Of a stretch of 64,000 nucleotides of DNA, positions 34,672 to 52,473 are shown piece after piece (position 1 is the stretch's first letter; each line of letters begins with the position of its first letter). Location of the stretch: NCBI RefSeq assembly GCF_024626475.1, contig NZ_JANKHH010000003.1, positions 62,001 through 126,000 on the forward strand, read 5' to 3'. Source of the DNA: Parerythrobacter lacustris. Its GTDB lineage: Bacteria > Pseudomonadota > Alphaproteobacteria > Sphingomonadales > Sphingomonadaceae. The notes beneath the pieces are model-generated. The model did no database searches. It saw only the letters and a list, made by a program, of their open reading frames with translations, and was not told the origin of the DNA. The translations under genes and the position numbers were made by a program.

Positions 34672-34673
34672 TT

Positions 34674-36406: not shown

Positions 36407-36495
36407 CGTCATTGCGAGGAGCGCAGCGACGCGGCAATCCAGGGTGGTACCGTGCAGCTCTGGATTGCCGCGCGGCTTCGCCGCTCGCAATGACG
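36407..36495. repeat. Dispersed hairpin repeat, copy 4
   Basis: Nearly the same sequence as copy 2, including the CCGTGCAGCTCTGGATTGCC segment. Confidence 0.85.
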
Positions 36496-36540
36496 GGCGA
36501 AGGGGAAGGGGAGGCTGAAGCAAATACCGCTGCGGCAATC

Positions 36541-36624
36541 TACCGTTCGTCATTGCGAGGAGCCGCAGGCGACGCGGCAATCTACCGTTCGTCATTGCGA
36601 GGAGCCGCAGGCGACGCGGCAATC
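36541..36624. repeat. Tandem 42-base duplication of half-repeats
   Basis: Bases 36541-36582 and 36583-36624 are identical. Each is a left half of the dispersed hairpin (TACCGTTCGTCATTGCGAGG onward to GGCAATC) without the right half. Confidence 0.9.
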
Positions 36625-36634
36625 CATTGCCCCC

Positions 36635-37510
36635 TCACCCGATAAACCCCCGCACCTCCGCCACGAAATCATCGAACCGGTCGTGGTGCACCCAGTGGCC
36701 CGCGCGGTCGTAGGCGCTGACTTTCACATTGTCGCCGAAGTGCGCGATGCGGCCGTCCTTCTCCGGATTGCTCGCCCAGCTGTCGTTGCCGTAGATCATC
36801 AGGGCGGGGCAGGTGATCCGGCCCCATAGCTCTTCCAGCTGGTCCATGGTGATGTCGTCGGGCGGCCAAGCGTGGAGGTGGGGGTCGAACTTCCAGCTCC
36901 AGGTGCCGTCCTCGTTGCGGATCGCGCCGTGGCGGGTGAGGTGTTCGGCCTGCGCGCGGCTCAAGTAGCTGTTCGCCTCGTGCATCCGGTCGAGCGCTTC
37001 GGCGAAACTGGCGTAGCGGCGCACCTGCCGTGCGGAGGCCTCGCGCTTCTTGTCGATCCATTGCTTGCGGTGATCGTACCACGGCGTCGCGGCCATCTTT
37101 TCCTGCACCCTGGGGCTGGGGCCGAGCCCTTCGATGGCGACAATCTTGCGCACCTTCTCGGGATACATCCCGGCATAGCGCAGGCTGACATTGCCGCCGA
37201 GCGAGTGCGCGACGATGGTGACGGGGGCGAGTTCGAGCTGGTGGATCAGCTGCGCCAGATCATAGACATAGGAACTGACGGTATAGACCCCGGTGTTGGT
37301 CCATTCGCTGTCGCCGTGGCCGCGCAGGTCGGGGCAGATCACGTGCCAGTCCTTGCGCAGCTCCTCCGCCACCCAGTCCCAGCTGCGGCAATGGTCGCGC
37401 CCGCCGTGCTGCAGGATCAGCGGCGGCGCGCCTTCGTTGCCCCAGTCGGCATAGTGCAGCTTGGTGCGCTGGCTGATGAAGCTCTGGCTGGTGGGGCCGA
37501 TGAGATCCAA
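36635..37510 (-). CDS. Alpha/beta-fold hydrolase
   Basis: A 291-residue cytosolic hydrolase. LQHGGRDH forms the oxyanion region, VAHSLGGN holds nucleophile S103, and DRAGHWVHHD holds the likely catalytic His. It is a standard length for this family, which includes lactonases, esterases and C-C hydrolases. It is divergent from an acyl-CoA dehydrogenase across 96 bases, suggesting a shared control region and an acyl ester or lactone substrate. Confidence 0.88.
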   Translation of the reverse strand: MDLIGPTSQSFISQRTKLHYADWGNEGAPPLILQHGGRDHCRSWDWVAEELRKDWHVICPDLRGHGDSEWTNTGVYTVSSYVYDLAQLIHQLELAPVTIVAHSLGGNVSLRYAGMYPEKVRKIVAIEGLGPSPRVQEKMAATPWYDHRKQWIDKKREASARQVRRYASFAEALDRMHEANSYLSRAQAEHLTRHGAIRNEDGTWSWKFDPHLHAWPPDDITMDQLEELWGRITCPALMIYGNDSWASNPEKDGRIAHFGDNVKVSAYDRAGHWVHHDRFDDFVAEVRGFIG

Positions 37511-37606
37511 GCGGGTTTCCCTTCACGTAAGCGTAAATTTGCGTTGCGGTTCGCTACCGATAGGATAGGCTGCCAGGCAACCAAAAAGCGAGAGAGGATT
37601 GCCACC

Positions 37607-38770
37607 ATGCCCGCACTCGACGTGCCGCCGCCCGCCTTCATGGAAGACGAGGAGATCTCGATCTTCGCAGATGCGGTGGGCAAGTTCTACCAGCAGCATG
37701 CGCCCGAAAAGCGCGTCCTCCAGTGGCGCGAGAACGGCCAGGTCGAGCGCGATTTCTGGCGCGAGGCGGGCGAGGCGGGGCTGCTCGGCGTGTCGGTCCC
37801 GACCGAATACGGCGGCCACGGCGGCGATTTCCGGCACGACATGGTGGTGATCGACCAGCAGGCGAAGCACGGGGTCGAGGGCTTTGCCGCTTCACTCCAC
37901 AACACCGTGATCCTGCCCTATCTGGTCCGCCACGGGACCGAGGAGCAGAAGGCGAAATACTTGCCCAAGCTGGTCACCGGCGAGCTGGTCAGCGCGATCG
38001 CCATGACCGAGCCGGGCGTGGGGTCGGACCTGCAGAGCATCACCACCACCGCGCTGAAGGACGGCAACGGTTACCGCATCAACGGGGCCAAAACCTATAT
38101 CTCCAACGGCCAGACGGCGGATTTCATCATCGTCGTCGCCAAGACCGACCCGAACGAGCGGGCCAAGGGCATTTCGCTGATGCTGCTGGAGACCGATGGG
38201 GCGGAAGGGTTCCAGCGCGGCAAGAAGCTCGACAAGATCGGGCTCGATGCGGCGGACACCAGCGAGCTGTTCTTCGACGATGTCTTCGTGCCGGCGGAGA
38301 ATGTCCTCGGCGGGGTCGAGGGCAAGGGCTTCTACCAGCTGATGGGCGAGCTGCCGCAGGAACGGCTGATCATCGCCATGGGCGCGATGACGGGGATCGA
38401 AAAGGCGCTCGAAACCACGCTCGAATACACCAAGAGCCGCAAGGCCTTCGGCAAGACGATCTGGGATTTCCAGAACACCCAGTTCGTGATGGCCGACCTC
38501 AAGGCGCGCTCGACCGCCGCCAAGGTGTTCGTCAACGATTGCATCGCGCGCCACCTCAAGGGCGAGCTCGACGTCGCGACCGCCTGCATGGCGAAATACT
38601 GGGTCACCGAGCTGCAGGGTGAAGTGGTCGACAAGTGCCTGCAGTTCCACGGCGGCGCGGGCTTCATCAACGATTACCCGATCGCCCGCATGTATCGCGA
38701 TTGCCGCGTGACCCGCATCTTCGGCGGCTCGAACGAGGTGATGAAGATGGTGATCGCCAGAGGAATGTAA
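37607..38770 (+). CDS. Acyl-CoA dehydrogenase
   Basis: A 387-residue FAD enzyme, similar throughout to the one at 33529-34671 (TEPGVGSDLQSI, FGKTIWDFQNTQF, FHGGAGFINDYPIARMYRD, FGGSNEVMKMV). As there, the MCAD Glu position is replaced (FGGSNEV), so a Glu in helix G (TTLEYTKSRKAFGK) is the likely base. The start at 37607 is chosen because it follows a GAGAGAGGATT ribosome site; the frame is open far upstream only by composition. It is a separate unit from the other beta-oxidation genes. Confidence 0.92.
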   Translation: MPALDVPPPAFMEDEEISIFADAVGKFYQQHAPEKRVLQWRENGQVERDFWREAGEAGLLGVSVPTEYGGHGGDFRHDMVVIDQQAKHGVEGFAASLHNTVILPYLVRHGTEEQKAKYLPKLVTGELVSAIAMTEPGVGSDLQSITTTALKDGNGYRINGAKTYISNGQTADFIIVVAKTDPNERAKGISLMLLETDGAEGFQRGKKLDKIGLDAADTSELFFDDVFVPAENVLGGVEGKGFYQLMGELPQERLIIAMGAMTGIEKALETTLEYTKSRKAFGKTIWDFQNTQFVMADLKARSTAAKVFVNDCIARHLKGELDVATACMAKYWVTELQGEVVDKCLQFHGGAGFINDYPIARMYRDCRVTRIFGGSNEVMKMVIARGM

Positions 38771-38812: not shown

Positions 38813-40309
38813 TTAGAGCGGCGCGTACTCCGCGAAATTCCGCGCGCAGGCTTCCAGCATGCCTTGCACCCCGTCGAAGTCGGCCACCCGGGCCTCCGGC
38901 GGGGCGGGCTGGAGTTTGCCAGCGGGGGGAAAGGTGCCGTAGCCCGCGAACAGGCAGTGCCAGCTCGCATTGGCGTAGTAACGCTTTCCGCCATAGGCCG
39001 CGTCGTTGGCGGCGAGCAGGTCCTGCTGGCGGAACCACGCGGTCATCATCGCCTTGAGCCCGTCGGACAGCTTCGGGTTCGCTGCATTGTCGTGCCAGTA
39101 TGGCGTGTCGGTCCGCTGGTTGAGCCGGTAATGCGCCACGATATAGTCGCGAATCCCTTCGTAGCGCGCGGCGATCGAGGTGTTGAACGCCTCGCGGTGC
39201 TGCGGTCCGAAACCGCCCGCCTCGTAGGCTTGGGCAAACTCCAGCGCGGTGGCGATGACGATATGCAGCGCGGTCGCCTCGAGCGGTTCGAGGAAGCCCT
39301 GCGACAGGCCGACCGCGAGGCAATTGCGGTGCCAGGTCTCCGCCACCCGCCCGACCTTCATCCTGAGGAAGCGCGCTTCCGGCCCGCCCTCACCCAGCCC
39401 CAGCGCGGCGCGCAGTTCGGCCTCGGCGTCTTCGTCGGAGATGTAGTTCGAGGAATAGACGTAGCCGTTGCCGACCCGATTGGTCTGCGGGATGGTCCAG
39501 CGCCAGCCGGCTGTCATCGCGGTGGCATCGGTCTGCGGCCGGAACGGCGCGGCGTGCCCGGTCGGCATCACAACGGCGCGGTCGTTGAACAGGTTCTCGG
39601 CGAAGGGGAGGAAGGGCACCCCCAGTTCCTGCTGCGCTAGCAGCGAGCGGAAGCCCGAACAGTCGACGAACAGCGTGCCTGCGACCCTCTCCCCGCCCTC
39701 GCACAGCAGCGCGGCGATATCGCCGTCACCCGTCCGTTCGACCGCGGAAACCTTGAGCGGCAAGTGCCGCACTCCCCGTTCAACCGCCCAGTCGCGCAGG
39801 AAGGCGCCGATGGCGTGGGCGTCGAAATGATAGCCATACCTGGGGGCGAAGGGGAAGCTTTCATCCGGATGCGGCCCGAGTCCGTGCTCGCTCAGCAGGG
39901 TGGCGAGGAACCACGGATCGGGATGCGCAGGGACGTCCATCCCGTGCCGCGCGAGCAGGCAGTTCTGGAGGAAGTGCGGCTCGCTGTGCAGGTCCACCGG
40001 GCCGGGGAAGGGGTGGTAATAGCTTTCGAACCCCGCCCGCTCGCTCCAGCCGTTGAAGCGGATGCCGAGTTTGAAAGTGGCGTTGCACGCGGGCATCCAC
40101 GCGCCTTCCTCCACGCCGAGCATGTCGAAAAAGGCCTTGAGCTGCGGGGTCGAGCCTTCGCCCACCCCGATGATGCCGATCTCGGGGCTTTCGACGACAG
40201 TGACCGAGCCACCTTTGTGCGCCCATTCCCGGTGCAGCAGGCAGGCGGTGATCCACCCCGCGCTGCCCCCGCCGAGGATGACTACATCGGGCGGTGTCGC
40301 TTCGCTCAT
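38813..40309 (-). CDS. Tryptophan-halogenase-like flavoprotein, second copy in the maltodextrin locus
   Basis: A 498-residue FAD-dependent protein. N-terminal Rossmann loop GGGSAGW (13-19), the GVGEGSTP segment that normally holds the FAD-side loop, FKLGIRFNGW, and GWRWTIPQTNRVGNGY, the WxWxIP motif of flavin-dependent halogenases. It has no export signal. Family members halogenate indoles, but many proteobacterial copies sit in sugar-uptake loci and have no known substrate. It overlaps the esterase gene by 4 bases and is the last gene of the minus-strand run. Confidence 0.88.
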   Translation of the reverse strand: MSEATPPDVVILGGGSAGWITACLLHREWAHKGGSVTVVESPEIGIIGVGEGSTPQLKAFFDMLGVEEGAWMPACNATFKLGIRFNGWSERAGFESYYHPFPGPVDLHSEPHFLQNCLLARHGMDVPAHPDPWFLATLLSEHGLGPHPDESFPFAPRYGYHFDAHAIGAFLRDWAVERGVRHLPLKVSAVERTGDGDIAALLCEGGERVAGTLFVDCSGFRSLLAQQELGVPFLPFAENLFNDRAVVMPTGHAAPFRPQTDATAMTAGWRWTIPQTNRVGNGYVYSSNYISDEDAEAELRAALGLGEGGPEARFLRMKVGRVAETWHRNCLAVGLSQGFLEPLEATALHIVIATALEFAQAYEAGGFGPQHREAFNTSIAARYEGIRDYIVAHYRLNQRTDTPYWHDNAANPKLSDGLKAMMTAWFRQQDLLAANDAAYGGKRYYANASWHCLFAGYGTFPPAGKLQPAPPEARVADFDGVQGMLEACARNFAEYAPL

Positions 40310-41220
40310 CGCTCCGACAGTAGCCAGCCGAAAATTTCCGGCAAGCGCTGCGCCCAGGCGTTTTCCTCATGCTCGGCGCCCTCATAGACCTCGGAGCGGT
40401 AGTCTTTCCCCTCGGCCCAGCCTTGGGCGGCAAAACGGGCGTCGATCGCCTGCTGGTACGGCGCGTAATACTGGTCGAGCGTGGCGGTGCCGTGGTCCAT
40501 CCACAGGCGGCGGCCATCGGGCTTGCCCAGCCGCGCGGCGAACCAGCCGTCCCACAGCGCAATCAGCTCGGGATTGGCCTCGCCCACCGCGCGCGGATCG
40601 GCGGCGGGCCAGTGCGAGGAGACGCAGCCGGCGCGGCCATAGACCTCGGGTCGTTCGAGGAAGGCATAGCACGACATCAGCCCGCCCATGCTCGATCCCA
40701 TGATCGTTGTGCTTTCGCGGCCCGGCTGGGTTCGATAGTCGCGATCGATCCGCTGCTTGAGCGGACCCGCCAGCCAGTCGAGATAGGCCCGGCTCATCAC
40801 CGGCCCGCCGGTCATCGCCTCCATTGCCGCGCGCGGGGTGCCCTCTGCCGCATCATAGATCGATTGCGGCAGATACTGGCGATAGCGGTCCGCCCCCGGA
40901 GCCCAGATCCCGACGATGATATGCGGCTGCACCTTGCCACTCGCCATCGCCGCCAGCATCGCCCTGTCCGCCGCCCACACCTTGTTGAAGTTGGACTTGG
41001 CCGGATCGAACAGATTGTGCCCGTCGTGCATATAGAGCACCGGATAGCGCCGCGTGCCGCTGTCGTAGCCGGGCGGAAGCCAGATGCTCAGCCGCTGGTC
41101 CGGCAGACCGGCGGCGGCTACCTGCTCCAATTCGACGAAGCGGCCCATATCAGCCTTGGTGCCTTGCGAGGTCACGCACCCCGCCAAGAACACCGCCAGC
41201 AGGACCGCGAGCCACCTCAC
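40306..41220 (-). CDS. Lipoprotein esterase (esterase-D-like alpha/beta hydrolase)
   Basis: A 304-residue protein with a lipoprotein signal (lipobox LAGC, C15). The PF00756-type fold shows LYMHDGHNLFD and the nucleophile elbow GSSMGG (S177), with a catalytic His near EGAEHEENAW. Relatives hydrolyse acyl-sugar or feruloyl-type esters. As a membrane-anchored lipoprotein it could strip acyl groups from maltodextrin on entry. It overlaps the GH97 gene by 4 bases. Confidence 0.88.
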   Translation of the reverse strand: MRWLAVLLAVFLAGCVTSQGTKADMGRFVELEQVAAAGLPDQRLSIWLPPGYDSGTRRYPVLYMHDGHNLFDPAKSNFNKVWAADRAMLAAMASGKVQPHIIVGIWAPGADRYRQYLPQSIYDAAEGTPRAAMEAMTGGPVMSRAYLDWLAGPLKQRIDRDYRTQPGRESTTIMGSSMGGLMSCYAFLERPEVYGRAGCVSSHWPAADPRAVGEANPELIALWDGWFAARLGKPDGRRLWMDHGTATLDQYYAPYQQAIDARFAAQGWAEGKDYRSEVYEGAEHEENAWAQRLPEIFGWLLSER

Positions 41221-43250
41221 TTGCCGGCCTTGAGCTGCATCGCCAGCCCGCCGCCGGGGGCGAGGCGCACGGTGTAGCTGTCGCCCTTCTGCACCGTCAG
41301 TGTCTCATAGGCGATGTCATGGCGCTTTTCGGTCAGGTAGGTCGCTTCGGGACCGTCCTTCCACACCTTGACCTGATAGCTCTTGCCTTCGTCGAGGAAG
41401 TCGAAGGTCAGCGTCACCGTCCGCTCGGTCGCGTCGTTGACCCCGCCGGCATACCAGTCTTCGCTGCCCCGATCCTTGCGCGCGAAGATCGCGTAGTCGC
41501 CCACCGCACCTTCGAGCAGCTTGCTTTCCGCCCAGTCCGCCGGGACCGCCTTGATAAACTCCAGCTCTTTCGGGTGCGCCGCGAGGCTTTCGACGAAATC
41601 GGCCGCCATCTGGATCGGCGAATAGATCGCGAGATAGAGCCCGAGCTGCTTCGCCTTGGTCGAGGCGATGGGGTAATTGTTGTCGCCGACCAGCCCCAGC
41701 ACGCCCGGCGTATAATCCATCGGGCCGGACAGCATGCGGGTGTAGACCAGCGTCGGCTCGTGGTCCGGCCCGTTGGCGAAGGCACCCCAGGCGTTGTATT
41801 CCTGCCCGCGCGCGCCTTCGCGGGCGACCCAGTTGGGGTAGGTGCGGCGAAGCCCGGTGTCCTTCACCGGCTCGTGCGGATTGATGGCGATTTTCCGCTC
41901 CGCAGCCTCGGTCACCACCTTGAGGTGATGCTGCACCTGCCGCTGGCCGTCATGCCATTCGAACACCTCGTCCCCGCACGGATCGGCAATATCGGCGTTG
42001 CACGAGATGATCCCGCCCGCATCGGCGACATAGCCGGTCTTGATCACATCGACCCCGTTGGCGGCGTAGAGGTCGAGCGCGTCTTCGAGTTGCGCCTCGT
42101 AGACCTCGATATTCCCGCCGGTCTCGTGATGGCCGATGATATGGACGCCCTTCTTCTTGGCGTAGGCGGTCACTTCCTTGAAATCGAAATCGGGATAGGC
42201 CTCGGTGAAGCTGTAATCGCGCCCGTTGCCGAACCAGTTGCCGTCCCACCCGACGTTCCAGCCTTCGATCAGGACCCCGCGAAAGCCATGCTTGGCGGCG
42301 AAGTCGATATATTGCTTGGCCCGCTCGGTGGTCGCGCCGTGGCGCTCGCCTTGCGCCCAGGTCCAGCGGTTGGAGATCATCCCCCACCAGATGCCGATAT
42401 ATTTGGCCGGCTTGAAATAGCTGACGTCGCCCAGCGCGTTGGGTTCGTTGAGATTGAGCTCGAGATCATTCTCGACCAGCCCGGCGGCGTCTTGCGCGAT
42501 GCGGATGCTGCGCCACGGCGTGGTGAAGGCTCCAGTGCGCACCACCTTCGGCCCCCGGCTGGAGGGCGAGAGCGTGGCGCGGAACCGCTGCCCGTCGAAC
42601 CGCTTGAGCCACATCGCCGAATAATCGACCAGTGCTGCCTCATGGAAGGAAAGATGCGTCCCATCCTCCAGCCGGATGGTCATCGGCGTATGCGCGGTGG
42701 AAACGGCGTCGATCGGGGTCTGATTGTAGAGATATTCGTAGCGGTTGAACGCGCCGGCGTTGATCCACCACGCGGTCCCCTTGGGCGCGATGACGAATTC
42801 GGTCTGCTCGTCGGCGATGTTGGTCACCTGGCCCGCCGGACGGTCGAATTCGTAGCGGAAGCCGATCCCGTCGTCGAACACCCGCATCCGCACGGTCAGC
42901 GCCCGCTTGGCGTTCTCGCGGTTTTCGCGGAAGGTGATGAGCAGTTCGTTGTGGTTGTCGCGGACAAACCGGCGCTCGCCCCACGGCTGTTCCCAGGTCG
43001 CATTCGCGCTCGAGGTGCTTTCGCTCTCGACCGTGAAGTTGCGCCGCATCGGCTCTTCGTCGGTGAACAGGAAGCCGAGGTCGCTCTCGGCGATCAGCTC
43101 CTTGCCGTCGCGCTCGACCCGGTAGAACGGCACCCCGTCGCCATCGACATTCATTTCGACCGTAATGCGTCCGTCCGGCGACGAGACCTCGGCGGCGGAC
43201 AGCGGGGCCGCGAGGGCGAGGGTGGAAGCGGCGGCGAGCAGCAGGCGCAT
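41217..43250 (-). CDS. GH97 alpha-glucosidase (SusB-like)
   Basis: A 677-residue enzyme with a signal peptide (1-19). An N-terminal beta-sandwich is followed by the GH97 barrel. HHETG, INPHEP and GQEYNAW provide the Glu residues of the inverting, SusB-type branch. Acting in the periplasm it would release glucose from the ends of maltodextrins and dextrins. The start overlaps nothing upstream but lies 3 bases after the GH13 stop, so it is co-transcribed. Confidence 0.93.
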   Translation of the reverse strand: MRLLLAAASTLALAAPLSAAEVSSPDGRITVEMNVDGDGVPFYRVERDGKELIAESDLGFLFTDEEPMRRNFTVESESTSSANATWEQPWGERRFVRDNHNELLITFRENRENAKRALTVRMRVFDDGIGFRYEFDRPAGQVTNIADEQTEFVIAPKGTAWWINAGAFNRYEYLYNQTPIDAVSTAHTPMTIRLEDGTHLSFHEAALVDYSAMWLKRFDGQRFRATLSPSSRGPKVVRTGAFTTPWRSIRIAQDAAGLVENDLELNLNEPNALGDVSYFKPAKYIGIWWGMISNRWTWAQGERHGATTERAKQYIDFAAKHGFRGVLIEGWNVGWDGNWFGNGRDYSFTEAYPDFDFKEVTAYAKKKGVHIIGHHETGGNIEVYEAQLEDALDLYAANGVDVIKTGYVADAGGIISCNADIADPCGDEVFEWHDGQRQVQHHLKVVTEAAERKIAINPHEPVKDTGLRRTYPNWVAREGARGQEYNAWGAFANGPDHEPTLVYTRMLSGPMDYTPGVLGLVGDNNYPIASTKAKQLGLYLAIYSPIQMAADFVESLAAHPKELEFIKAVPADWAESKLLEGAVGDYAIFARKDRGSEDWYAGGVNDATERTVTLTFDFLDEGKSYQVKVWKDGPEATYLTEKRHDIAYETLTVQKGDSYTVRLAPGGGLAMQLKAGK

Positions 43251-43253
43251 GGG

Positions 43254-44861
43254 TCAGATCTCCAGGATGAGCGCGCCGTAGGGCGGCAGGGTGTCGGGGG
43301 TGGCGGAATTGACGGCGAGCAGGACCTTGCCGCGCGCATCGGACAGCGGCAACGGGTCGGGGCCGAGGTTGAACAGGCAGCGAACCCGCTGGCCATCGCC
43401 GGCGCGGGTCAGATCGAGCAGGCTTCCCTTGGCGATGCAGGACGTCACACTGCCATGATGCAGCGCGGGGTTGGCGTTGCGCAGCGCGAGCGCTTCGCGG
43501 GTGAACGCCAGCATCGCTTCGCTGTCCGCCGCCTGCCGGTCCGCCGCGCGGGCGAGGTTGGCTTCGCTCAGCGGGAGCCACGGGGTGCCGGTAGTGAAGC
43601 CGCCGAATTCGTCCTGCGCGGTCCACGGCATCGGGGTGCGCACCCCGTCGCGCGACAGGGTCAGCGGCCAGTTGGCGATGGCTTCGGGGTCCTGCAGCTG
43701 GTCGAACGGGATATCGTCCTGTTCCAGCCCCAGTTCCTCGCCCTGGAACAGGATGATGTTGCCCCGCAGGCAGGCGAGCAGCGCCATCTTGAGCCGCGCG
43801 AACGGCTCGATATGCTCGGGCGCACACCAGCGCGAAACCGCGCGCGGCGCATCGTGGTTCTCGAACGCCCAGCTCGGCCAGCCGGTGCCGCCTGCATCCG
43901 GCCATTCGCCCAGAGCCGCGCATACCAGCTCGGGCGTCAGCCGGTCGGCGTAAAGGAAGTTGAAGCCATAAGCCGAATTGAGATGGGTCTCGCCGTCGGT
44001 GAAGGCTTTCATCTCCGCCCCGGCATCGGCACCGCCGACTTCGGCCACGGTGAACACCGCGTCGTAGCGATCGGTCAGCATCCGGATGCGTTCGATGAAG
44101 CGCGGTATGTCGGGGTGCGACATATTGTGCGACTGGAGCTGGAAATCGAACGGGCGGCTGCGCGGCTTGCCGCTGTCGGGCGCGGGGGGATTGTCGCGCA
44201 ATTGCGGATCGTGCATCGCGAAGTTGAGCGCATCGATGCGGAAGCCGTCGACCCCGCGGTCGAGCCAGAACTGCATCACCGCCAGCATCGCATCCTGCAC
44301 CGCCGGCTTGTGCAGGTTGAGCTGCGGCTGGCTGCTGAGGAAATTGTGCATGTAATATTGGCCGCGCCTGGCATCCCATGTCCAGGCGGGCCCACCGAAT
44401 ACCGATTGCCAGTTCGAAGGTGGCGACCCGTCGGGCTTGGCATCGGCCCACACATACCAGTCGGCCTTGTCGTTATGTTTCGACGACCGGCATTCGGCGA
44501 ACCATGGGTGCTCGTCCGAAGTGTGCGAATAAACCTGGTCGATCAGGACCTTGAGGCCCAGCCCATGTGCGCGGGTGACCAGCGTATCGAAATCGGCCAG
44601 CGTACCGAAGATCGGATCGACGCCGCAGTAGTCGGCGACGTCGTAACCGAAATCCTTCATCGGGCTGGTGAAGAAGGGCGAAATCCAGATCGCATCGACG
44701 CCCAGCTCGGCAACGTAATCGAGCCGCGATGCGATGCCCGGCAGATCGCCGATCCCGTCGCCGTTCGAATCCTGGAAACTGCGCGGATAGATCTGGTAGA
44801 TCGATGCGCCCTTCCACCACGGGCGCGCGGGATCGATCGCGGGTTGCGGAGCGGTGGCCAC
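43254..44861 (-). CDS. GH13 alpha-glucosidase, cytoplasmic
   Basis: A 535-residue enzyme. I use the GTG at 44861, one base downstream of the amylase stop, which has GGAGAA about 8 bases upstream. An ATG at 44900 would lie inside the amylase gene. Catalytic residues: nucleophile D210 (DGFRIDALNF), acid/base E274 (FTVAEVGG) and D337 (FENHDAP). The oligo-1,6-glucosidase-like start (WWKGASIYQIYPRSFQDSNGDG) and lack of a signal peptide point to cytosolic hydrolysis of maltose and short maltodextrins, presumably imported by the MFS carrier. Confidence 0.93.
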   Translation of the reverse strand: MATAPQPAIDPARPWWKGASIYQIYPRSFQDSNGDGIGDLPGIASRLDYVAELGVDAIWISPFFTSPMKDFGYDVADYCGVDPIFGTLADFDTLVTRAHGLGLKVLIDQVYSHTSDEHPWFAECRSSKHNDKADWYVWADAKPDGSPPSNWQSVFGGPAWTWDARRGQYYMHNFLSSQPQLNLHKPAVQDAMLAVMQFWLDRGVDGFRIDALNFAMHDPQLRDNPPAPDSGKPRSRPFDFQLQSHNMSHPDIPRFIERIRMLTDRYDAVFTVAEVGGADAGAEMKAFTDGETHLNSAYGFNFLYADRLTPELVCAALGEWPDAGGTGWPSWAFENHDAPRAVSRWCAPEHIEPFARLKMALLACLRGNIILFQGEELGLEQDDIPFDQLQDPEAIANWPLTLSRDGVRTPMPWTAQDEFGGFTTGTPWLPLSEANLARAADRQAADSEAMLAFTREALALRNANPALHHGSVTSCIAKGSLLDLTRAGDGQRVRCLFNLGPDPLPLSDARGKVLLAVNSATPDTLPPYGALILEI

Positions 44862-44862
44862 G

Positions 44863-46692
44863 TCAGTCGTTCTCCGTCGTGTGCAGGGCGCAGGCCGCAT
44901 AGCCGTATGGCGGCAGGGTCAGGGTGATTGTTCCCGGCGCGGCGGGTGCGGCGGGGCAGTCGCCGAGCAGCGTCGACACGCTGGTCGCGCGATAATCGAT
45001 CTCTACATTGCGGGTGATCGCTTTGCCGCTGGTGTTGTAAGCGAGCAGGACTCGCTCCCCGCTGTCGGCATCGTGGCGTTCGACCGCGAGCAGGCCCGGG
45101 CCTTCGTGATCGAAATTGCGGATCGTCGTCAATCCGCGCCGCAGCGCCGCGCTGCCGGTGCGCGCCTTCGAGAGCTCGGCGATCTGGCGGTAGAGCGGAT
45201 GGCTGGTATCGAAATTGCTCTCCGCCGTAGTCGCATCGGTGCCGAGCAGGGTGTTATCGTTGTAGACCGCGACCTTACTCGGGAACATATCCTCGCGCGC
45301 GAGCTGGTCGTTGCCGTCGGAAACGAAGCCCTGTTCGTCGCCGTAATAGACCGTCGGCACGCCGCGCAGGGTGAACATCATCGCATGGCCGAGCATCACC
45401 CGCGCGAGCAGTTCGTCGGCATCGGCATCGGGCGCATTCTGCTTCACGAACATCGAGAAGCGCCCGAAATCGTGATTGCCGAGGAAGGTCGGAAGGCCCG
45501 TCGCGGTCTTTGCGCCGCCGGGATAGATCGCGTCCTGCTCGAGGAACTCGGCCATCACCCGCGGCGATTGCTTGCCGCTCGCGACCTGCTGCGCCGCTGC
45601 CGCGAAACCCATGTCGAGCGCATAGGGCAGCCCGCTTTCGGCCATCACCCGCGCGTTGATGATTGCATCGGGGCTCTGGTAGGCGATCTCGCCGAAGATG
45701 TGGAAATTGGGGATGCCCTTCGCTTCGGCCCGTTCGAGCATGGCGGGGACGAAGGCCTGCCAGAATTCCGGGTTCACATGCTTGGCGGTGTCGATGCGGA
45801 AGCCGTCGATCCCGTAGCGGTCGATCCAGTCGCCGAAGATTTCGATCATGCCCGAAACCACGCGCGGGTGTTCGGTCGCAAGATCGTCCAGCCCGACGAA
45901 ATCGCCGTAAACGCTGCTCTCGCCGATCCAGAAGCTGTCGCCCCGATTGTGGTAATAGATCGGATCGTTGAGCCAGGCGGGGACCTTGACGTCTTTCTCT
46001 GACGCCGGAACCACCGGGGTGTAGGCGAAGGACGGATCGGTCAGCTTCGCCCAGTTTTCCGCGCTCGGGTCCTTGTCACCTGCAAAGCCCGAATTGATCG
46101 GCGCCCCATCCGGCCCGCCGCGGGTCGAGTAGGGATAGTCCGCCTTGCTGCGATACTGGTACTGGTCCTCGGCATAACGGATCACGTCGGCGGTGTGGTT
46201 GGTGATGATGTCCATATAGACCTTGATCCCGCGCGCATGCGCCGCGTCGACGAAGGTGCGGAAATCGTCATTGGTCCCGAAATGCGGGTCGACCTGGGTG
46301 AAATCGGTCACCCAATATCCGTGATAGCCCGAGCTTTCGTCGCCCTTCGGGCCTTGCACCGGCTTGTTCTTGAAGATCGGCGCGAACCAGATCGCGGTGA
46401 CGCCCATGCCCTGGATGTAGTCGAGCCGCGCGATCAGCCCCTTGAGGTCGCCGCCGTGGTAGAACCCCTTATGCGCGGGGTCGAACCCGCTCTTTAGCCG
46501 GTCCGCCGGGAGGCCGCCGAGATCGTTCGATGGATCGCCGTTCTCGAACCGGTCGGGGAGGACGAAATAGACCACCTCGTCCTGCGGCAGGCGCTCGCGC
46601 AGCGTATCGGCCCCGTCGTGATGCTCGGCCCATGCCGGAGCGGCGGTGGAGATCGCCAGGAGGGAGGCGGCGAGGGCAAGGAACGGTTTCAT
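44863..46692 (-). CDS. Secreted GH13 alpha-amylase / cyclomaltodextrinase-like enzyme
   Basis: A 609-residue enzyme with a signal peptide (1-22, cut after AWA). GH13 residues: D301 (DGFRIDTAKHV), E335 (HIFGEIAY) and D408 (FLGNHDFGR), with an all-beta C-domain at the end (PPYGYAACAL). Periplasmic or outer-surface hydrolysis of alpha-1,4 glucans to maltodextrins is the likely role. The ATG at 46692 overlaps the upstream halogenase stop (TGATG). An in-frame extension upstream lies in the halogenase and is rejected. Confidence 0.93.
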   Translation of the reverse strand: MKPFLALAASLLAISTAAPAWAEHHDGADTLRERLPQDEVVYFVLPDRFENGDPSNDLGGLPADRLKSGFDPAHKGFYHGGDLKGLIARLDYIQGMGVTAIWFAPIFKNKPVQGPKGDESSGYHGYWVTDFTQVDPHFGTNDDFRTFVDAAHARGIKVYMDIITNHTADVIRYAEDQYQYRSKADYPYSTRGGPDGAPINSGFAGDKDPSAENWAKLTDPSFAYTPVVPASEKDVKVPAWLNDPIYYHNRGDSFWIGESSVYGDFVGLDDLATEHPRVVSGMIEIFGDWIDRYGIDGFRIDTAKHVNPEFWQAFVPAMLERAEAKGIPNFHIFGEIAYQSPDAIINARVMAESGLPYALDMGFAAAAQQVASGKQSPRVMAEFLEQDAIYPGGAKTATGLPTFLGNHDFGRFSMFVKQNAPDADADELLARVMLGHAMMFTLRGVPTVYYGDEQGFVSDGNDQLAREDMFPSKVAVYNDNTLLGTDATTAESNFDTSHPLYRQIAELSKARTGSAALRRGLTTIRNFDHEGPGLLAVERHDADSGERVLLAYNTSGKAITRNVEIDYRATSVSTLLGDCPAAPAAPGTITLTLPPYGYAACALHTTEND

Positions 46693-48206
46693 CAGGCAGA
46701 CTTCCTCTGGTCCGGGGGCATGCAATAGGCGCGCAAGAATTCGACGTGGGGCGGCAGGGTGGCGGCGATGCGTTCGACACCCTGTTCGATCCGGAGCATC
46801 ATCGCGGCGAGCTGTTCGTCGGGTAGTCCGTCGGCGATCGGGTTCCAGCTTTCGGGCATCACGTCCTGCCCGGCGAAGACCTGCAGCCAGCCTTCCGGCG
46901 TGAACAGTTCTTCGTGTTCGCGATGGATGAAGCCGGTGGCGCGGAATTGTGCGATCTTGGCCTCCAGCGTATCGGGCAAGGCCATCGCACGGCAATGGTC
47001 CCAGAACGGCTCGCCGGTGCGGCCGTTGGCATGGTAGTGCAGGATCAGGAAGTCGCGGATCCGCTCCCACTCGAAGCGTGCGTGGCGGTTGAACTCGGCA
47101 GCGATGGCGGGGTCGATCCGTGCCCCGGGCAGCATCTGGAGGAAGCGCGCGATCGACGACTGGATCAGGTGGATGCTGGTCGATTCGAGCGGCTCCATGA
47201 ACCCGGCGGCGAGCCCGATGCCGAGGCAATTGCCGCGCCACTGCTCGGCGCGCATGCCGGTGGTGAAGCGCAGCGTGTTGGGTTCGGCCTGCTGTTCGCC
47301 ATCGAGATGGGCGAGCAGGATGTCGAGCGCCTCCTGCTGCTCCATGAAGGCGCTGCAGAACACATGGCCGTTGCCGATCCGGTGTTGCAGCGGGATTCGC
47401 CATTGCCAGCCCGCCTTGCGCGCGGTGCTCTTCGTATAGGGGGTGAAATCGCCCTTGGCCGCGCAGGGCACCGCGATCGCGCGGTCGCACGGCAGCCAGT
47501 GGGTCCAGTCGAGGAAGGCGCTCCCCATCGCTTCGCCGAGCAGCAGGCTGCGGAAGCCGGTGCAGTCGATGAAGAAATCGCCGGTTACCGTCTCGCCGCC
47601 CTGCAAGGCAATCGAGGCGATATCCCCGCTCTCACCATCGCGCACGACGTCGCCGACCAGCCCTTCGATCCGCGCCACGCCGCGCGCTTCGCAATAGCGG
47701 CGGAGATAGGCGGCATAGAGGCCGGCATCGAAGTGATAGGCCCACGGCATGTCGGGCGCGGGCTGGCCCGGTTCGCTGCGCCAGATCTGCATTGCATTGC
47801 GGCGCGCCGCCGCTTCGTTGAGCGAATAGGCGGCGAGGTCCTTCGCCTTGCCTGCGGCGCGCGCGCGCAGCCAGTAGTGGTGGAACGGCAGCAGGCCATG
47901 CGGCTGGCCGATATTGCCGAAGGCGTGCATGTAACTGCGGCCTTCGCCCGCCCATCCGGCGAATTCGATCCCGAGTTTGAAGCTGCCGCGTGTCTCGCGC
48001 AGGAACTCGGCTTCGTCGATCCCCAGCCCGGCATTGAACAGGCGGATTTGCGGGATCGTCGCCTCGCCCACGCCGATGGTTCCGATCGCATCGGACTCGA
48101 CCAGCGTGACGCTGGCCTGCGTGAAGCGGGCGAGGGCCGCCGCCGTCATCCAGCCAGCCGTTCCCCCGCCGACGATGACGATTCTCATTGCCGACTGCTT
48201 GGTCAT
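46692..48206 (-). CDS. Tryptophan-halogenase-like flavoprotein, first copy in the maltodextrin locus
   Basis: A 504-residue protein. GGGTAGW near residue 13, IGVGEATIPQIR, FKLGIEFAGW and GWQWRIPLQHRIGNGH (WxWxIP) place it in the flavin-dependent halogenase family. GEATIP is closer to authentic tryptophan halogenases than the second copy. It lies directly behind the MalA-like receptor and is coupled to the amylase (TGATG). Start could also be Met7 (MRIVIVGGG). No evidence identifies the substrate, and a flavin-dependent oxidative role on an imported ligand is equally possible. Confidence 0.88.
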   Translation of the reverse strand: MTKQSAMRIVIVGGGTAGWMTAAALARFTQASVTLVESDAIGTIGVGEATIPQIRLFNAGLGIDEAEFLRETRGSFKLGIEFAGWAGEGRSYMHAFGNIGQPHGLLPFHHYWLRARAAGKAKDLAAYSLNEAAARRNAMQIWRSEPGQPAPDMPWAYHFDAGLYAAYLRRYCEARGVARIEGLVGDVVRDGESGDIASIALQGGETVTGDFFIDCTGFRSLLLGEAMGSAFLDWTHWLPCDRAIAVPCAAKGDFTPYTKSTARKAGWQWRIPLQHRIGNGHVFCSAFMEQQEALDILLAHLDGEQQAEPNTLRFTTGMRAEQWRGNCLGIGLAAGFMEPLESTSIHLIQSSIARFLQMLPGARIDPAIAAEFNRHARFEWERIRDFLILHYHANGRTGEPFWDHCRAMALPDTLEAKIAQFRATGFIHREHEELFTPEGWLQVFAGQDVMPESWNPIADGLPDEQLAAMMLRIEQGVERIAATLPPHVEFLRAYCMPPDQRKSA

Positions 48207-48234
48207 TCGTGCCTCTCTTGCGGATGAGGCTGGC

Positions 48235-48259
48235 GGGCCCCGGCGCGGTGCCGGGGCCC
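48235..48259 (-). terminator. Intercistronic hairpin after the receptor gene
   Basis: GGGCCCCGGC (48235-48244) and GCCGGGGCCC (48250-48259) form a perfect 10-base stem with a 5-base loop, starting 8 bases after the receptor stop. There is no T-run, so it may act as a partial terminator or protect the receptor mRNA. Confidence 0.65.
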
Positions 48260-48267
48260 GTTATGCG

Positions 48268-51015
48268 TCAACGGAACTTGTAGGTGAAGCCTGCAAGGAA
48301 CCGGCGGCCGTAGATCTGGTAATCGACGACCTGGTTGCGGTTGCCGCCGATCGAAGCGAAGCGTTCGTCGGTCAGGTTCTGGCCCTGGAGGTAGAGCGAG
48401 AGGCCGTTGAGCGCGCTGTCGTCGGGGAAATCATACCCGATCTGCGCATCGATGATCGTCTCGCCCAGCGCGATCCTGCGGGTCGGCGAACCGCCGAAGC
48501 CGGTGAAGTCACCGAGGAAGGTCGACCGGTAGCGAGCGCTGGCGCGGGCGTTGAAACCGCTCTTCTCGAAATAGGCCGTGCCGTTGACCACCCACTTCGA
48601 ATAGCCGGGGATCTGCGTCTCGTTGCCGCCCGCATCCTCGACATTGGTCTTGGTGTAACCCGCACCACCAGTGATGCCGAACCCGTCGAGCGCCTCGCTG
48701 AAGGTGGCGAAGGGCAGGGTGACCGCCAGTTCGCCGCCGTACAGATCGCCGCCACCGGTGTTGATCGGCGCATCGAGCGTGCCCACCGTCGGAAGGTTGG
48801 GGAAGCCCGCCGCGCCGGTCGGTTCGGGGAAGCCCGCATAGTCGAACGCAAAGCGGCCGTTGAAGATGAAGCTCTTGATGTCCTTGTAGAACAGCTGGAC
48901 CGCGACCACGCCCCCGCGTCCGAAATACTGCTCGATGTTGAAGTCGACCGCATTCGCACGATAGGGCCGCAGGAACGGGTTGCCCCCGCCGCCGCGGATA
49001 ATCCCGCCGGGGACCGAATTGTCGATCCCGTAGCCGATCGACAGGCGGGTGTCGTCGAGCCGCGGACGCATGATCTCGCGCGCGGCGGCAAGGCGGATCA
49101 CCGTGTCGCTGTCGAGGCGGAGCGAGAGGTTGAGGCTCGGCAGCACATCCCAGAAGTCATCGCCGAAGGTCCGCTCTTGCGGGCCCGTCGGGGTGAAGAT
49201 GAAGCCGGTCGATTTCTGGTTGGTGTTGACCGCCTGGACCCCGATGTTCCCGGTCAGCGTGCCGCCGCCCAGCTCCTGCTCGATATTTGCCTGGAGATAG
49301 GCGGTCATCAGGTCTTCGTTGACGGTGTAGCCCTTGCCCAGCACGTCGGCGGCGGCGTTCGGGCCGGTCGCGACGCGGGGCTCGAGAACGAGCACACCCG
49401 CATCGATCAGGTCGCGCGCGTCGTAGCTCACGATCGGGCCAAGGCCGAGGTAGCTAAGGTCGGTCGAACGCAGCAGGAACTGGCTCGGCACGGTAGCGGT
49501 GAGCGCACCGTTCGGCAGGCGAACGAAGGCCTCGTCGGGGGTCAGGCTCTTCTCGCGCGTCGTGTAGTTCATGCCGTACTGCACGCTGCGGATGAAGCCG
49601 CCTTCGAATTCCTTCTCGACCTCGGCGCGGAACTGCAGCAGCTCGTCGTCGATGATGCGGTTGTTGAAGTAACCCGCCTGCGGCACGGTGCCGCCACCCC
49701 AGCCGAGCGGGTCGGTGAGGAAGATCTGCGCCGGGTTGGAATAGTCGAGCGAGGGGTTGAACACCGTGCCGGTCGGGCCAGACTGGAAGCCGATCGTCGC
49801 CGATGCGCCATTGCCCGTGTCGTCACCGTTGAACCCGGTGCCGGCATAGCTTTCGAGGCTCAGCTCGTTGCGGTCGGTGCGCGAATAGCCGAAGTCGAAG
49901 AAGGCGTTCCAGCCGTCGTCACCTTCGTGATCGACGTTGAAGCCGAACGAATAGAGGTCGGCCTTGCGCTGGAAGATGTCGTTGCGCACCACGCCGCGCA
50001 CATTGTTGAATGTGCCCGAGGTGGCGAAGCCGTCTTCGACATTGCCGATCGTGGTGGTGGTGCCGAACGCGCCGAAGCCGAGCGGCAGTTCGATCCCGCG
50101 CTTCGACTGGTCGTCGTTGAAGTTCGAATAGAACCCGTCGAGCGTCACCATGATGGTCGGCGCGGCCTGGTATTGCAGCGTGCCGTTCACACCGAAGCGC
50201 TTGAGTTCGGTCGAGGTGACGAAGCTCTTCGATCCGCCGATCACGCTCGGCGATGCTGCGGTGCCCGAACCGGCGTAGCCCCAGGCGTTGAATTCCTGCA
50301 GCTGGTAGGGCTCGCTGACGTAAGAGGCGGCCAGCGAGAGGCCGACCGTATCTTCGGCGAACTGGTCGACGAAGGCCGCGTTGAGCCGATAGCCGATATC
50401 CTTCGAACCGGCATTGAGTTTGCCGAGGTCGGCATAGGAAGCGCGCGCGCCGACCGCGAGCACCTGCTTGCTGGTTTCGAGCGGGCGGACGGTGCGGATA
50501 TCGACCGTACCGACCAGGCCCTGGCCGACCAGCGAGGCGGTGGGCGATTTGTACACCACCACCTGATTGACGATTTCAGAGGGATACTGGTCAAGCTCGA
50601 CCGAGCGGTTGTCGCTGGTGGTGGTCTGTTCGCGGCCGTTGAGCAGGGTCTGCGAGAAATCGGGGCCGAAACCGCGGATAGCGATCACGTTGGCGCGGCC
50701 GTTGAGGCGCTGCGAGGTCAGGCCGGGCAGGCGGGCGATCGACTCGCCGATCGACGAGTCGGGCAGCTTGCCGATGTCTTCCGCCGTCACCGACTCGAGG
50801 ATCTGGTCGCTGTTGCGCTTTTCGGCGACCGCGCTTTCGAGCGAGGCGCGGAAACCGCTGACGATGATGACATCGTCCTCGTTCTCGCCGGCCTCGGCGG
50901 TTTCTTCGTCGTCGGCGTCCTGCGCCAGCGCGGCTTGCGGTGCGAATCCGCCGACGAGCGCGAGGGCGAGTGCCGGCGCGCTGATTCCCGACGTGAGGAA
51001 ATTGCGTTTGATCAC
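48268..51015 (-). CDS. MalA-like TonB-dependent maltodextrin receptor
   Basis: A 915-residue receptor, first gene of the maltodextrin run. I use GTG at 51015, which has GGGAGAAG upstream and yields a clean signal peptide (NFLTSGISAPALALALVGGF..., cut after ALA). A TonB-box-like DDVIIVSGFRASL is followed by plug motifs AIRGFGPDFSQTLLNGREQ and the barrel ending FTYKFR. This is the wording of the sugar receptors of Caulobacter MalA type. A candidate LacI operator lies 127 bases upstream. Confidence 0.92.
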   Translation of the reverse strand: MIKRNFLTSGISAPALALALVGGFAPQAALAQDADDEETAEAGENEDDVIIVSGFRASLESAVAEKRNSDQILESVTAEDIGKLPDSSIGESIARLPGLTSQRLNGRANVIAIRGFGPDFSQTLLNGREQTTTSDNRSVELDQYPSEIVNQVVVYKSPTASLVGQGLVGTVDIRTVRPLETSKQVLAVGARASYADLGKLNAGSKDIGYRLNAAFVDQFAEDTVGLSLAASYVSEPYQLQEFNAWGYAGSGTAASPSVIGGSKSFVTSTELKRFGVNGTLQYQAAPTIMVTLDGFYSNFNDDQSKRGIELPLGFGAFGTTTTIGNVEDGFATSGTFNNVRGVVRNDIFQRKADLYSFGFNVDHEGDDGWNAFFDFGYSRTDRNELSLESYAGTGFNGDDTGNGASATIGFQSGPTGTVFNPSLDYSNPAQIFLTDPLGWGGGTVPQAGYFNNRIIDDELLQFRAEVEKEFEGGFIRSVQYGMNYTTREKSLTPDEAFVRLPNGALTATVPSQFLLRSTDLSYLGLGPIVSYDARDLIDAGVLVLEPRVATGPNAAADVLGKGYTVNEDLMTAYLQANIEQELGGGTLTGNIGVQAVNTNQKSTGFIFTPTGPQERTFGDDFWDVLPSLNLSLRLDSDTVIRLAAAREIMRPRLDDTRLSIGYGIDNSVPGGIIRGGGGNPFLRPYRANAVDFNIEQYFGRGGVVAVQLFYKDIKSFIFNGRFAFDYAGFPEPTGAAGFPNLPTVGTLDAPINTGGGDLYGGELAVTLPFATFSEALDGFGITGGAGYTKTNVEDAGGNETQIPGYSKWVVNGTAYFEKSGFNARASARYRSTFLGDFTGFGGSPTRRIALGETIIDAQIGYDFPDDSALNGLSLYLQGQNLTDERFASIGGNRNQVVDYQIYGRRFLAGFTYKFR

Positions 51016-51141
51016 AGTGTCTTCTCCCAGTCCCGCCGCACCCCTGCGGCGATAGTCACAAATCTTTTGGGGTGCCGAACCAAGTAATTCGGGCCCCTCG
51101 ATTGTGCCTTTCGGCCAAGAACACTGCCTTCGCATAGTCAG

Positions 51142-51151
51142 CATACGTATG
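51142..51151. promoter_or_regulatory. Candidate LacI-family operator, receptor side
   Basis: CATACGTATG is a perfect 10-base palindrome in the gap between the receptor and the divergent LacI gene. It matches the site before the MFS gene in 9 of 10 positions. Confidence 0.6.
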
Positions 51152-51284
51152 TTTGTGCGGCGCACAACGGAGCGGTGTTGCGCGATTGCATCAAATTGTC
51201 ACACTGGCCTGAAACGCGCGGTGCCGCTCAGCGCGCTCATTGCGCGGCGCGCGTGCGAGGGATAGGTCTGCTCCCAAGGGAGAG

Positions 51285-52355
51285 ATGATGGGCCGCCAAC
51301 CCACAGGGAAGCCGACGAGCTTCGACATCGCCTATCGCGCCGGGGTCTCGCAGCCCACGGTCAGCCGGGCCTTGCGCGGCGACAAGGCGGTCAGCGCGGC
51401 GACCCGCGAGAAAATCGAGGCGATCGCGCGCGAGCTCAACTACACGGTGGACAAGAACGCTTCATCGCTGCGCTCGCAACGCGCCAACACCATCGCGCTA
51501 TTGTTCTTCGAGGACCCGACGGCGGACGATTCCAACATCAACCCGTTCTTCCTCTCGATGCTCGGCTCGATCACCCGCGAATGCGCCAACCGCGGGCTCG
51601 ACCTGCTGATCTCGTTCCAGCGGATGGAAGACGACTGGCACGTCAAATACCAGGACAGCCACCGCGCCGACGGGCTGATCCTGCTCGGCTATGGCGACTA
51701 TACCGCCTATGCCCAGAAGCTGGAAAAGCTGGTCGAGCAGGGCACGCATTTCGTTCGCTGGGGATCGGTGCGCGAAGACAATATCGGGCCGACGGTGGGT
51801 TCGGACAATTTCGGTGCGGGGAAGCTGGCGGGCGAGCACCTCCTGTCGCTGGGCCGGCGGAGAATTGCCTTCCTCGGTGATGCCGACGAGGGCTATCCCG
51901 AATTCGCCGACCGCTACGCCGGGTGCTGCGCGGCGATGCGCGAAGCCGGGATCGAGCCGGATAGCAGGCTGCGCAAGGATGCGCTGACCAACGAGGCCGA
52001 CGGCTATATCGCGGCCAAGTCCCTGATCGCCGACGGGCGACCGTTCGATGCGATATTCGCCGCGAGCGACCTGATCGCGATCGGCGCGATGCAGGCGCTG
52101 GCCGAAGCCGGGCTACGCGTGCCGGGCGATGTCGCGATCGTCGGCTTCGACGATATTCCGGCGGCGAACCACACCAGCCCGCCGCTGACCACGCTGATGC
52201 AGGACCTGCGCGGCGCGGGCGGGGCCTTGCTCGACGTGCTGACCGAAGCGATCGAAGGGGATGCAATCACCCGGTGCGAACTGCCCGCACGGCTGGTGAT
52301 CCGGGCCAGCACGGTCGGCCAGCCCACGCCTGCCGCAGTGCGCCCAGCCGCCTGA
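51285..52355 (+). CDS. LacI-family transcription regulator
   Basis: A 356-residue regulator. The N-terminal helix-turn-helix (FDIAYRAGVSQPTVSRALRGDKAVSAATREKI, ~12-44) is followed by the hinge and a periplasmic-binding-fold effector domain (FDAIFAASDLIAIGAMQALAEAGLRVPGDVAIVGFDD). ATG at 51285 has AAGGGAGAG upstream; a second ATG follows. It most likely represses the divergent receptor operon and the downstream MFS gene when maltodextrin-derived ligand is absent. Confidence 0.9.
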   Translation: MMGRQPTGKPTSFDIAYRAGVSQPTVSRALRGDKAVSAATREKIEAIARELNYTVDKNASSLRSQRANTIALLFFEDPTADDSNINPFFLSMLGSITRECANRGLDLLISFQRMEDDWHVKYQDSHRADGLILLGYGDYTAYAQKLEKLVEQGTHFVRWGSVREDNIGPTVGSDNFGAGKLAGEHLLSLGRRRIAFLGDADEGYPEFADRYAGCCAAMREAGIEPDSRLRKDALTNEADGYIAAKSLIADGRPFDAIFAASDLIAIGAMQALAEAGLRVPGDVAIVGFDDIPAANHTSPPLTTLMQDLRGAGGALLDVLTEAIEGDAITRCELPARLVIRASTVGQPTPAAVRPAA

Positions 52356-52379
52356 GCGGACGCGAAATCACCGGCAATA

Positions 52380-52389
52380 CATTCGTATG
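52380..52389. promoter_or_regulatory. Candidate LacI-family operator, MFS side
   Basis: CATTCGTATG, one base from the palindrome at 51142-51151, located 85 bases before the MFS start and 25 bases after the regulator stop. Confidence 0.55.
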
Positions 52390-52473
52390 CGTGTTGTCGG
52401 CCCGGCGTTTTGCTGCCAGCCGTCGAAGGTGCCAGCGCGGCGAGAGCCCGCGCGCACCGATTGGGAGACGGAA

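Follow-up and report, generated by a model that had tools for sequence, protein, structure and literature searches.

Loop 1 closes the active site in tryptophan halogenases of the SttH and Th-Hal type, and the lanthipeptide tryptophan halogenase MibH (PDB 5uao) acts on tryptophan inside a peptide. For two further flavin-dependent halogenases (FDHs), BrvH from a Brevundimonas-like metagenome (PDB 6frl) and Xcc4156 from Xanthomonas campestris (PDB 6y1w), short loops have been tied to an open site able to take larger substrates (PMC7336383, PMC5945002). The Xcc4156 report states that the native substrates of both enzymes are unknown, considers a peptide, and records activity of Xcc4156 on indole and indole derivatives (PMC7336383). 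The BrvH report describes a K83A exchange that abolishes activity, another FDH gene upstream of the BrvH gene, and a WxWxIP motif suggested to prevent monooxygenase activity (PMC5945002). Here we describe an operon of Parerythrobacter lacustris (Pseudomonadota, Alphaproteobacteria, family Sphingomonadaceae) in which two FDH-like genes accompany a TonB-dependent receptor. The operon occupies the minus strand at 38813-51015 of a stretch of 64,000 nucleotides (the window; contig NZ_JANKHH010000003.1, positions 62,001 to 126,000), and its tightly packed genes encode, in order, the receptor, FDH-A, two GH13 proteins, a GH97 protein, an esterase with a lipobox, and FDH-B. Among known systems, the Caulobacter MalA maltodextrin system is one of the closest to the operon. 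A Caulobacter locus in our comparison (L086) resembles the operon in its TIGR01782-like receptor and its LacI, major facilitator superfamily (MFS) and GH13 genes, but has no FDH within eight genes of the receptor.

The constant partner of these FDHs is the receptor and not a glycosidase. We chose 79 loci by their receptor alone, and in 60 of them the gene that follows the receptor downstream, on whichever strand, encodes an FDH. The receptor-alignment scan named at least 80 loci, of which 79 were usable (L145 was excluded because the contig end cuts its receptor); five second receptors, which bring the number of receptors to 84, were not counted as loci, and L084 and L008 are apparently one contig. 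The loci with an FDH next to the receptor include some from Sphingomonadales, Pseudoalteromonas, Shewanella and Alishewanella, and the nearest receptor locus among the matches listed is that of Tsuneonella troitsensis (80% identity), which points to Erythrobacteraceae as the probable origin of the window. The receptor of the window (48268-51015; 915 aa) is of the MalA type, with a TIGR01782 score of 539.9 bits against a cut-off of 310 and a Plug domain (PF07715).

Further counts started from the halogenases. We counted 46 FDHs in five genomes of the family; 23 of these are no more than 2 kb from a TIGR01782 receptor above the cut-off, where 1.4 are expected at random, and 36 are no more than 10 kb from one; conversely, 20 of the 55 TIGR01782 receptors have an FDH within 10 kb and 35 have none. 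Split matches were merged by hand for this count (three FDHs, two receptors), and the count excludes two FDH rows with very weak scores and every receptor row below the cut-off. Relatives of Xcc4156 at E 1e-60 or better were found in 60 of 398 sampled Pseudomonadota genomes, with up to three candidates scored per genome. We used 52 of these 60, with one match each, which was the top one except in the genome of L268, where it was the second; the eight omitted genomes belong to the window's own family, and seven of them have loci that were fetched earlier. A TonB-dependent receptor lies within three genes of an FDH in 44 of the 52, any FDH in the stretch being admitted and L278 being counted as linked despite two intervening genes. 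This total combines 16 of 20 and 27 of 32 genomes scored with a simple, purpose-made open reading frame (ORF) caller, which supplied the gene calls in the neighbourhood counts, and one locus (L288) in which Pfam identified a TonB-dependent-receptor barrel. No receptor was seen within that distance in L294 (a 6-kb contig with SapC present), L255, L266-L268 and L279-L281, and six of these eight FDHs are at most 38% identical to Xcc4156.

Receptors are accompanied by FDHs of this family even where the glycosidases differ or where we recognised none. The pairing is general to sugar receptors, and the starch setting of the present operon is incidental. The initial annotation had suggested that the enzymes might oxidise or halogenate an imported glycoside aglycone. 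We rejected aglycone chemistry as a general explanation, because the common partner is the receptor while the glycosidases vary. Frequent companions in receptor-FDH loci are SapC (PF07277), Cupin_8 (PF13621) and a second FDH with a GEGTWP motif, and oxygenase-like companions take the form of Cupin_8 or of a tetratricopeptide repeat (TPR) protein with a 2-oxoglutarate (2OG)-Fe(II) domain. The closest relatives of Xcc4156 in the sampled genomes (69, 66 and 62% identity) sit in receptor-SapC-Cupin_8-FDH cassettes, whereas a scan of the nine genes at 38813-53991 showed neither SapC nor Cupin_8. FDHs resembling FDH-B stand beside receptors outside the window's class in L118, L142, L283, L284 and L298.

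The receptor-SapC-Cupin_8-FDH cassette, often with a GEGTWP-type FDH behind the receptor, was seen in L249, L252, L253, L254, L257, L261, L270, L272, L273 and others, within the window's class as well as in further classes of the phylum. The source genome itself carries its single SapC gene (G000:C9:54021-54680; L269) on a contig without an FDH match. Another of its FDHs (L005/L001; G000:C8:227886) has a receptor on one side and, on the other, a TPR protein in which a putative 2OG-Fe(II) oxygenase domain (PF13759) is present. A further one (L006; G000:C1:482857) stands in divergent orientation to a neighbouring TIGR01782 receptor and adjoins a LacI gene.

Among the open-access full texts in the matches listed, no paper joins FDHs with TonB-dependent receptors, although closed or unlisted papers could do so. 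Word searches gave no occurrence of TonB in the main texts of PMC7336383, PMC5945002 and PMC8269204, and none of halogenase in PMC1790865, on carbohydrate receptors, or PMC4052901. One paper guesses at a halogenase role in virus-host receptor interaction, not in connection with sugar receptors (PMC11337851). The strong regularity in these genome comparisons, undescribed among the open-access matches listed, is that FDHs with a predicted open site, frequently paired with an unlike FDH, are linked to sugar receptors.

FDH-A (46692-48206; 504 aa) and FDH-B (38813-40309; 498 aa) are full-length matches to PF04820, at 608 and 411 bits against a cut-off of 21. A PF04820 match alone is unspecific, as E. 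coli and archaeal control genomes also give matches. Both proteins also have the flavin adenine dinucleotide (FAD) motif GxGxxG (GGGTAG in FDH-A, GGGSAG in FDH-B) and WxWxIP (WQWRIP and WRWTIP, respectively). The lysine and glutamate that correspond to K83 and E349 of BrvH are K77 and E341 in FDH-A and K80 and E344 in FDH-B, and both residues are retained in all 88 A-type and all 40 B-type sequences. The next position, Ser350 in BrvH, is serine in 87 of the 88 A-type sequences (S342 in FDH-A) and alanine in all 40 B-type sequences (Ala345 in FDH-B). The FAD loop reads GEATIP in 81 and GEASIP in seven of the A-type sequences, FDH-A being among the former, and GEGSTP in every B-type sequence. 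The initial annotation was right to describe both proteins as halogenase-like flavoproteins with WxWxIP, and the catalytic residues that it wished to see compared with those of biochemically studied halogenases are in place. Its remark that the copies differ in the GEATIP/GEGSTP loop extends well beyond this genome: the loop is a fixed difference that separates two clades.

Loop 1 has 15 residues in FDH-A and 12 in FDH-B, compared with 35 in SttH and Th-Hal, 15 in BrvH and nine in Xcc4156. Region 2 is 26 residues long in all 88 A-type sequences, as in BrvH, and 31-32 in all 40 B-type sequences. FDH-A thus equals BrvH in both lengths and falls with the open-site enzymes BrvH and Xcc4156; FDH-B has a short loop 1 but a longer region 2 and falls outside this group, and neither protein has the 35-residue loop 1 of the free-tryptophan halogenases. 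The PDB sequences closest to FDH-A are Xcc4156 (494 bits), 9luq (484 bits; a Pseudoalteromonas tryptophan halogenase according to its PDB title of 2026, 44% identical to FDH-A) and BrvH (456 bits), with PrnA at 288 bits. For FDH-B the top PDB sequences are the tryptophan halogenases SttH (5hy5) and Th-Hal (5lv9) at 294 bits, and BrvH scores 247. AlphaFold2 models of the two proteins (mean predicted local distance difference test score 88.9 for FDH-A and 90.5 for FDH-B) match the halogenase fold along their entire length. The FDH-A model fits 9luq best (Z 56.9, root-mean-square deviation (rmsd) 1.7, 482 residues aligned), followed by 6frl (Z 55.5, rmsd 1.8, 484 aligned), and the FDH-B model has many near-equal matches, the top nine with Z 41-43, rmsd 2.6-3.1 and 468-473 residues aligned. 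The matches of the FDH-A model also include PDB 9ltb, a putative tryptophan halogenase of Altererythrobacter released in 2026.

In a tree of 249 sequences, the A-type proteins cluster with Xcc4156 and 9luq, and support for the position of BrvH is poor. All 40 B-type proteins fall into a single clade (support 1.0), nested in a group (support 1.0) with SttH, Th-Hal and the GEGTWP-type FDHs of other receptor loci. By sequence, FDH-A has its nearest solved relative in Xcc4156, with which it shares catalytic residues, short loops and tree group. It has the catalytic Lys/Glu pair and WxWxIP in common with BrvH, which is an assayed enzyme, whereas FDH-A is known here from its sequence and model. FDH-B shares with SttH and Th-Hal a similar WMPACNAT-K stretch as well as the clade, in which other FDHs also fall; it differs from them in loop 1 (12 against 35 residues), in GEGSTP instead of GEATF and in Glu-Ala instead of Glu-Ser. 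MibH has the same fold as FDH-A (Z 41.3) but is distant in sequence (216 bits), and no lanthipeptide genes were noticed at the operon.

Relatives of FDH-B at 50% identity or more occur in 28 of 149 genomes of the family, its own genome included, and the next ones among the matches listed reach at most 44%. In each of the 27 other FDH-B loci that we fetched, a receptor is present with FDH-A as the next gene downstream. These loci were selected for containing FDH-B, and the receptor and FDH-A were found in all 27, which argues that the association of the three genes is not due to chance. The esterase is optional (present in seven of the 28 FDH-B loci, the window included), and L058 and L063 have the receptor, FDH-A and glycosidases without FDH-B. 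By motif we distinguished 174 A-type, 53 GEG-type (48 Glu-Ala, five Glu-Ser) and 17 degenerate proteins. Per locus, the sets were A alone in 72, A with a GEG-type in 47, a GEG-type alone in six, two A-type in five, and one to three A-type with one degenerate FDH in 17, tallies that are not population frequencies because FDH-B partly guided the fetching. Up to four FDH-like genes occur at one receptor (L037, L065). The 17 degenerate proteins (e.g., L046:7155-8621 and L036:6457-7914) constitute a single clade (support 0.998) and occur in the same loci as intact FDHs, almost always next to a receptor (none was seen in L046 and L059).

We tentatively propose that the receptor is served by two cytosolic FDHs that modify a receptor-linked polypeptide, most simply the receptor precursor before Sec export. 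Both enzymes are predicted to be active with reduced FAD, O2 and a halide, which for FDH-A would be bromide rather than chloride if Xcc4156 and BrvH are a guide. The open site of FDH-A would take an indole or another aromatic side chain of the polypeptide, FDH-B would act on the same target or on the product of FDH-A, and the modification might tune receptor folding, ligand binding or resistance to attack. In a partial Mantel test over 48 loci, with the three glycosidases removed, FDH-A distances tracked receptor distances (r 0.36, p 0.002), and they did not track the adjacent alpha-amylase-like GH13 protein (GH13a; r 0.03, p 0.32). Over the 34 loci with FDH-B, FDH-B tracked FDH-A (r 0.37, p 0.002) and FDH-A tracked the receptor (r 0.20, p 0.04).

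Several observations weigh against modification of the receptor. FDH-A distances tracked those of the alpha-glucosidase-like GH13 protein (GH13g) equally well in the 48 loci (r 0.36, p 0.001), and FDH-B did not track the receptor in the 34 loci (r 0.12, p 0.13). No tryptophan column is enriched in the 88 receptors followed by an FDH relative to 14 without FDH-A, one of which (L074) has FDH-B; seven of the 114 maltodextrin-type receptors were omitted from this alignment by score or length, and five with a nearby, non-adjacent FDH-A were set aside. W314 and W359 are in fact commoner in receptors without FDH-A, and no tryptophan column is common to the maltodextrin-type and the other FDH-linked receptors. 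For 13 of the 114 maltodextrin-type receptors, of which some lie close to a contig end, the eight genes to either side include no FDH, and the FDHs are therefore dispensable; a locus without an FDH is not the same as a cell without one, however, as the Caulobacter genome of L086 has six FDHs elsewhere. Moreover, the assays in the BrvH report show low activity in the bromination of free indole at C3 and no action on free tryptophan (PMC5945002).

A dedicated receptor tryptophan as the target was accordingly rejected in its simple form, no such column tracking the presence of an FDH. The initial annotation had also raised modification of something tied to receptor function, and that idea finds support in the gene linkage (60 of 79 loci; 23 of 46 FDHs against 1.4 expected; 44 of 52 genomes) and left without a matching receptor tryptophan. 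The receptor of the window has five tryptophans (245, 369, 439, 622 and 808); W245 is invariant and W439 nearly so in receptors with and without FDH-A alike. One column is tryptophan in 93% of 29 non-maltodextrin FDH-linked receptors and in 14% of 35 unlinked ones, is absent from the maltodextrin receptors, and may only mark a subfamily. Within two receptor types, receptor positions G117 and Y685 follow the presence of FDH-B, their values of 0.53 and 0.49 exceeding the 95% limit of 0.39 from label permutation, with tyrosine at 685 in 34 of 36 full operons with FDH-B and in nine of 22 without it. We treat this as a lineage effect, because descent is uncontrolled and L058 and L068, which lack FDH-B, keep the tyrosine.

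Other accounts of the linkage have to be set against modification of the receptor precursor. The FDHs could act in the cytosol on a small diffusible aromatic such as indole, a plant or algal aglycone or a signal molecule, with the receptor linkage reflecting co-induction by sugar. The indole chemistry of BrvH and Xcc4156 in vitro (PMC5945002, PMC7336383) and the tryptophan halogenases that are the nearest solved sequences to FDH-B both speak for this, but the same enzyme type stands behind receptors with different or no recognised glycosidases, the four FDH-like genes found at some receptors are more than one shared small substrate would need, and loop 1 is short in both proteins, unlike that of SttH and Th-Hal. 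On balance we find this account possible but doubtful. It is unlikely, in our view, that the target is instead another exported envelope protein, such as a glycosidase, TonB or a surface protein. Enzymes that by eye lack a signal peptide might meet any secreted protein before its export, and FDH-A distances also follow those of GH13g, which itself has no signal peptide by eye; the receptor, on the other hand, is common to the linked loci, and no glycosidase is, as far as our reference set recognises them.

The chemistry itself might also differ from halogenation, the proteins being halogenase relatives that carry out another flavin reaction (hydroxylation, oxidation, or release of peroxide or hypohalite). 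FDH-B, with its altered FAD loop and with alanine for serine beside the catalytic glutamate throughout its 40-member clade, fits such a change; relatives at other loci have lost the lysine (17 of 17 degenerate proteins) and mostly the glutamate as well (15 of 17), and PF04820 extends to the control genomes mentioned above. Both proteins of the operon nevertheless keep the lysine, the glutamate and WxWxIP, the last being the motif for which a part in preventing monooxygenase activity was proposed (PMC5945002), and we regard a different reaction as improbable. It seems less probable still that the FDHs are hitchhikers, inherited with the operon and without a receptor-specific job: FDH-B and the esterase are optional and loci without any FDH exist, but the linkage is seen again among differing gene sets, both within the window's class and in further classes of its phylum, and it involves several clades of FDH.

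A wider form of the receptor-modification proposal would treat the unlike FDH pairs (A with GEATIP and Glu-Ser; B with GEG-x-x-P and mostly Glu-Ala), frequently accompanied by SapC and Cupin_8, as a modular kit by which proteobacteria would halogenate or oxidise aromatic residues of their outer-membrane sugar receptors prior to export. This generalisation is speculative and rather unlikely to hold as a whole. It would amount to post-translational modification of TonB-dependent receptors, of which we found no description among the open-access matches listed. BrvH and Xcc4156 both have crystal structures, and the finding that their family travels with outer-membrane receptors narrows the candidates for the native substrates of such FDHs to the receptor, exported proteins encoded in the operon, or a receptor-linked small molecule. 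Receptor halogenation or oxidation, if true, would add a new layer to nutrient uptake and perhaps provide a source of protein-labelling enzymes.

The remaining genes of the operon are those of a starch locus. GH13a (44863-46692; PF00128, 215 bits) is followed by GH13g (43254-44861; PF00128, 386 bits; alternative start at 44900), a GH97 glycosidase (41217-43250; PF10566, PF14508 and PF14509) and a putative esterase (40306-41220; PF00756, 90 bits) with the N-terminal lipobox LAGC. At three junctions the genes overlap, by 4, 4 and 1 bases, and at two they are separated by gaps of 3 and 1 bases; the 61 bases between the receptor and FDH-A are the sole wider junction. The MalA-like receptor, the three glycosidases, the lipoprotein esterase and the tight coupling had all been recognised in the initial annotation, which had placed both flavoproteins and the esterase between the receptor and the glycosidases; only FDH-A is found there, the esterase and FDH-B being at the 3′ end. 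It also left out two divergent genes of the locus on the plus strand at 51285-53991, for a LacI-family regulator (51285-52355; PF00356, PF13377) and an MFS sugar transporter (52474-53991; PF07690, PF13347). The locus is a maltodextrin uptake operon, which is probably under LacI control. N-termini resembling signal peptides were seen in the receptor, GH13a and GH97, and none in FDH-A, FDH-B and GH13g, all judged by eye from the translations. Long plus-strand ORFs opposite the operon (e.g., 41319-44927) were taken as high-GC artefacts and not as genes, because the minus-strand genes opposite them have family matches.

Between the receptor and the divergent lacI gene lies the palindrome CATACGTATG (51142-51151), a candidate operator of the LacI type. 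Its core, ATACGTAT, has a single copy in the window, at 51143-51150. Of 108 maltodextrin-type loci, 85 carry it upstream of the receptor, where mononucleotide shuffles predict 0.56; the remainder of these loci, 2.2 Mb in all, contains 52 further copies. We read ATACGTAT as a putative LacI operator on the basis of its placement and recurrence, and with it upstream of the receptor the FDH genes are probably induced together with the receptor. Transcription of the FDHs separately from the maltodextrin genes, which the initial annotation had named as grounds for abandoning its proposal, appears unlikely, because the genes overlap and the operator-like palindrome is single in the window. A promoter scan gave results near chance level and a terminator scan results below it.

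A second TonB-dependent receptor-like protein is encoded on the minus strand at 59972-62656 of the window, with TIGR01782 matches of 119 and 70 bits, below the cut-off, and with no PF04820 match nearby. The region adjoining the operon on its other side (30238-38770) encodes, from translations read by eye, thiolase-, enoyl-CoA hydratase- and CoA-transferase-like proteins and two acyl-CoA dehydrogenase-like proteins, and a tRNA-Ser gene lies at 34737 in the neighbourhood of these acyl-CoA type genes.

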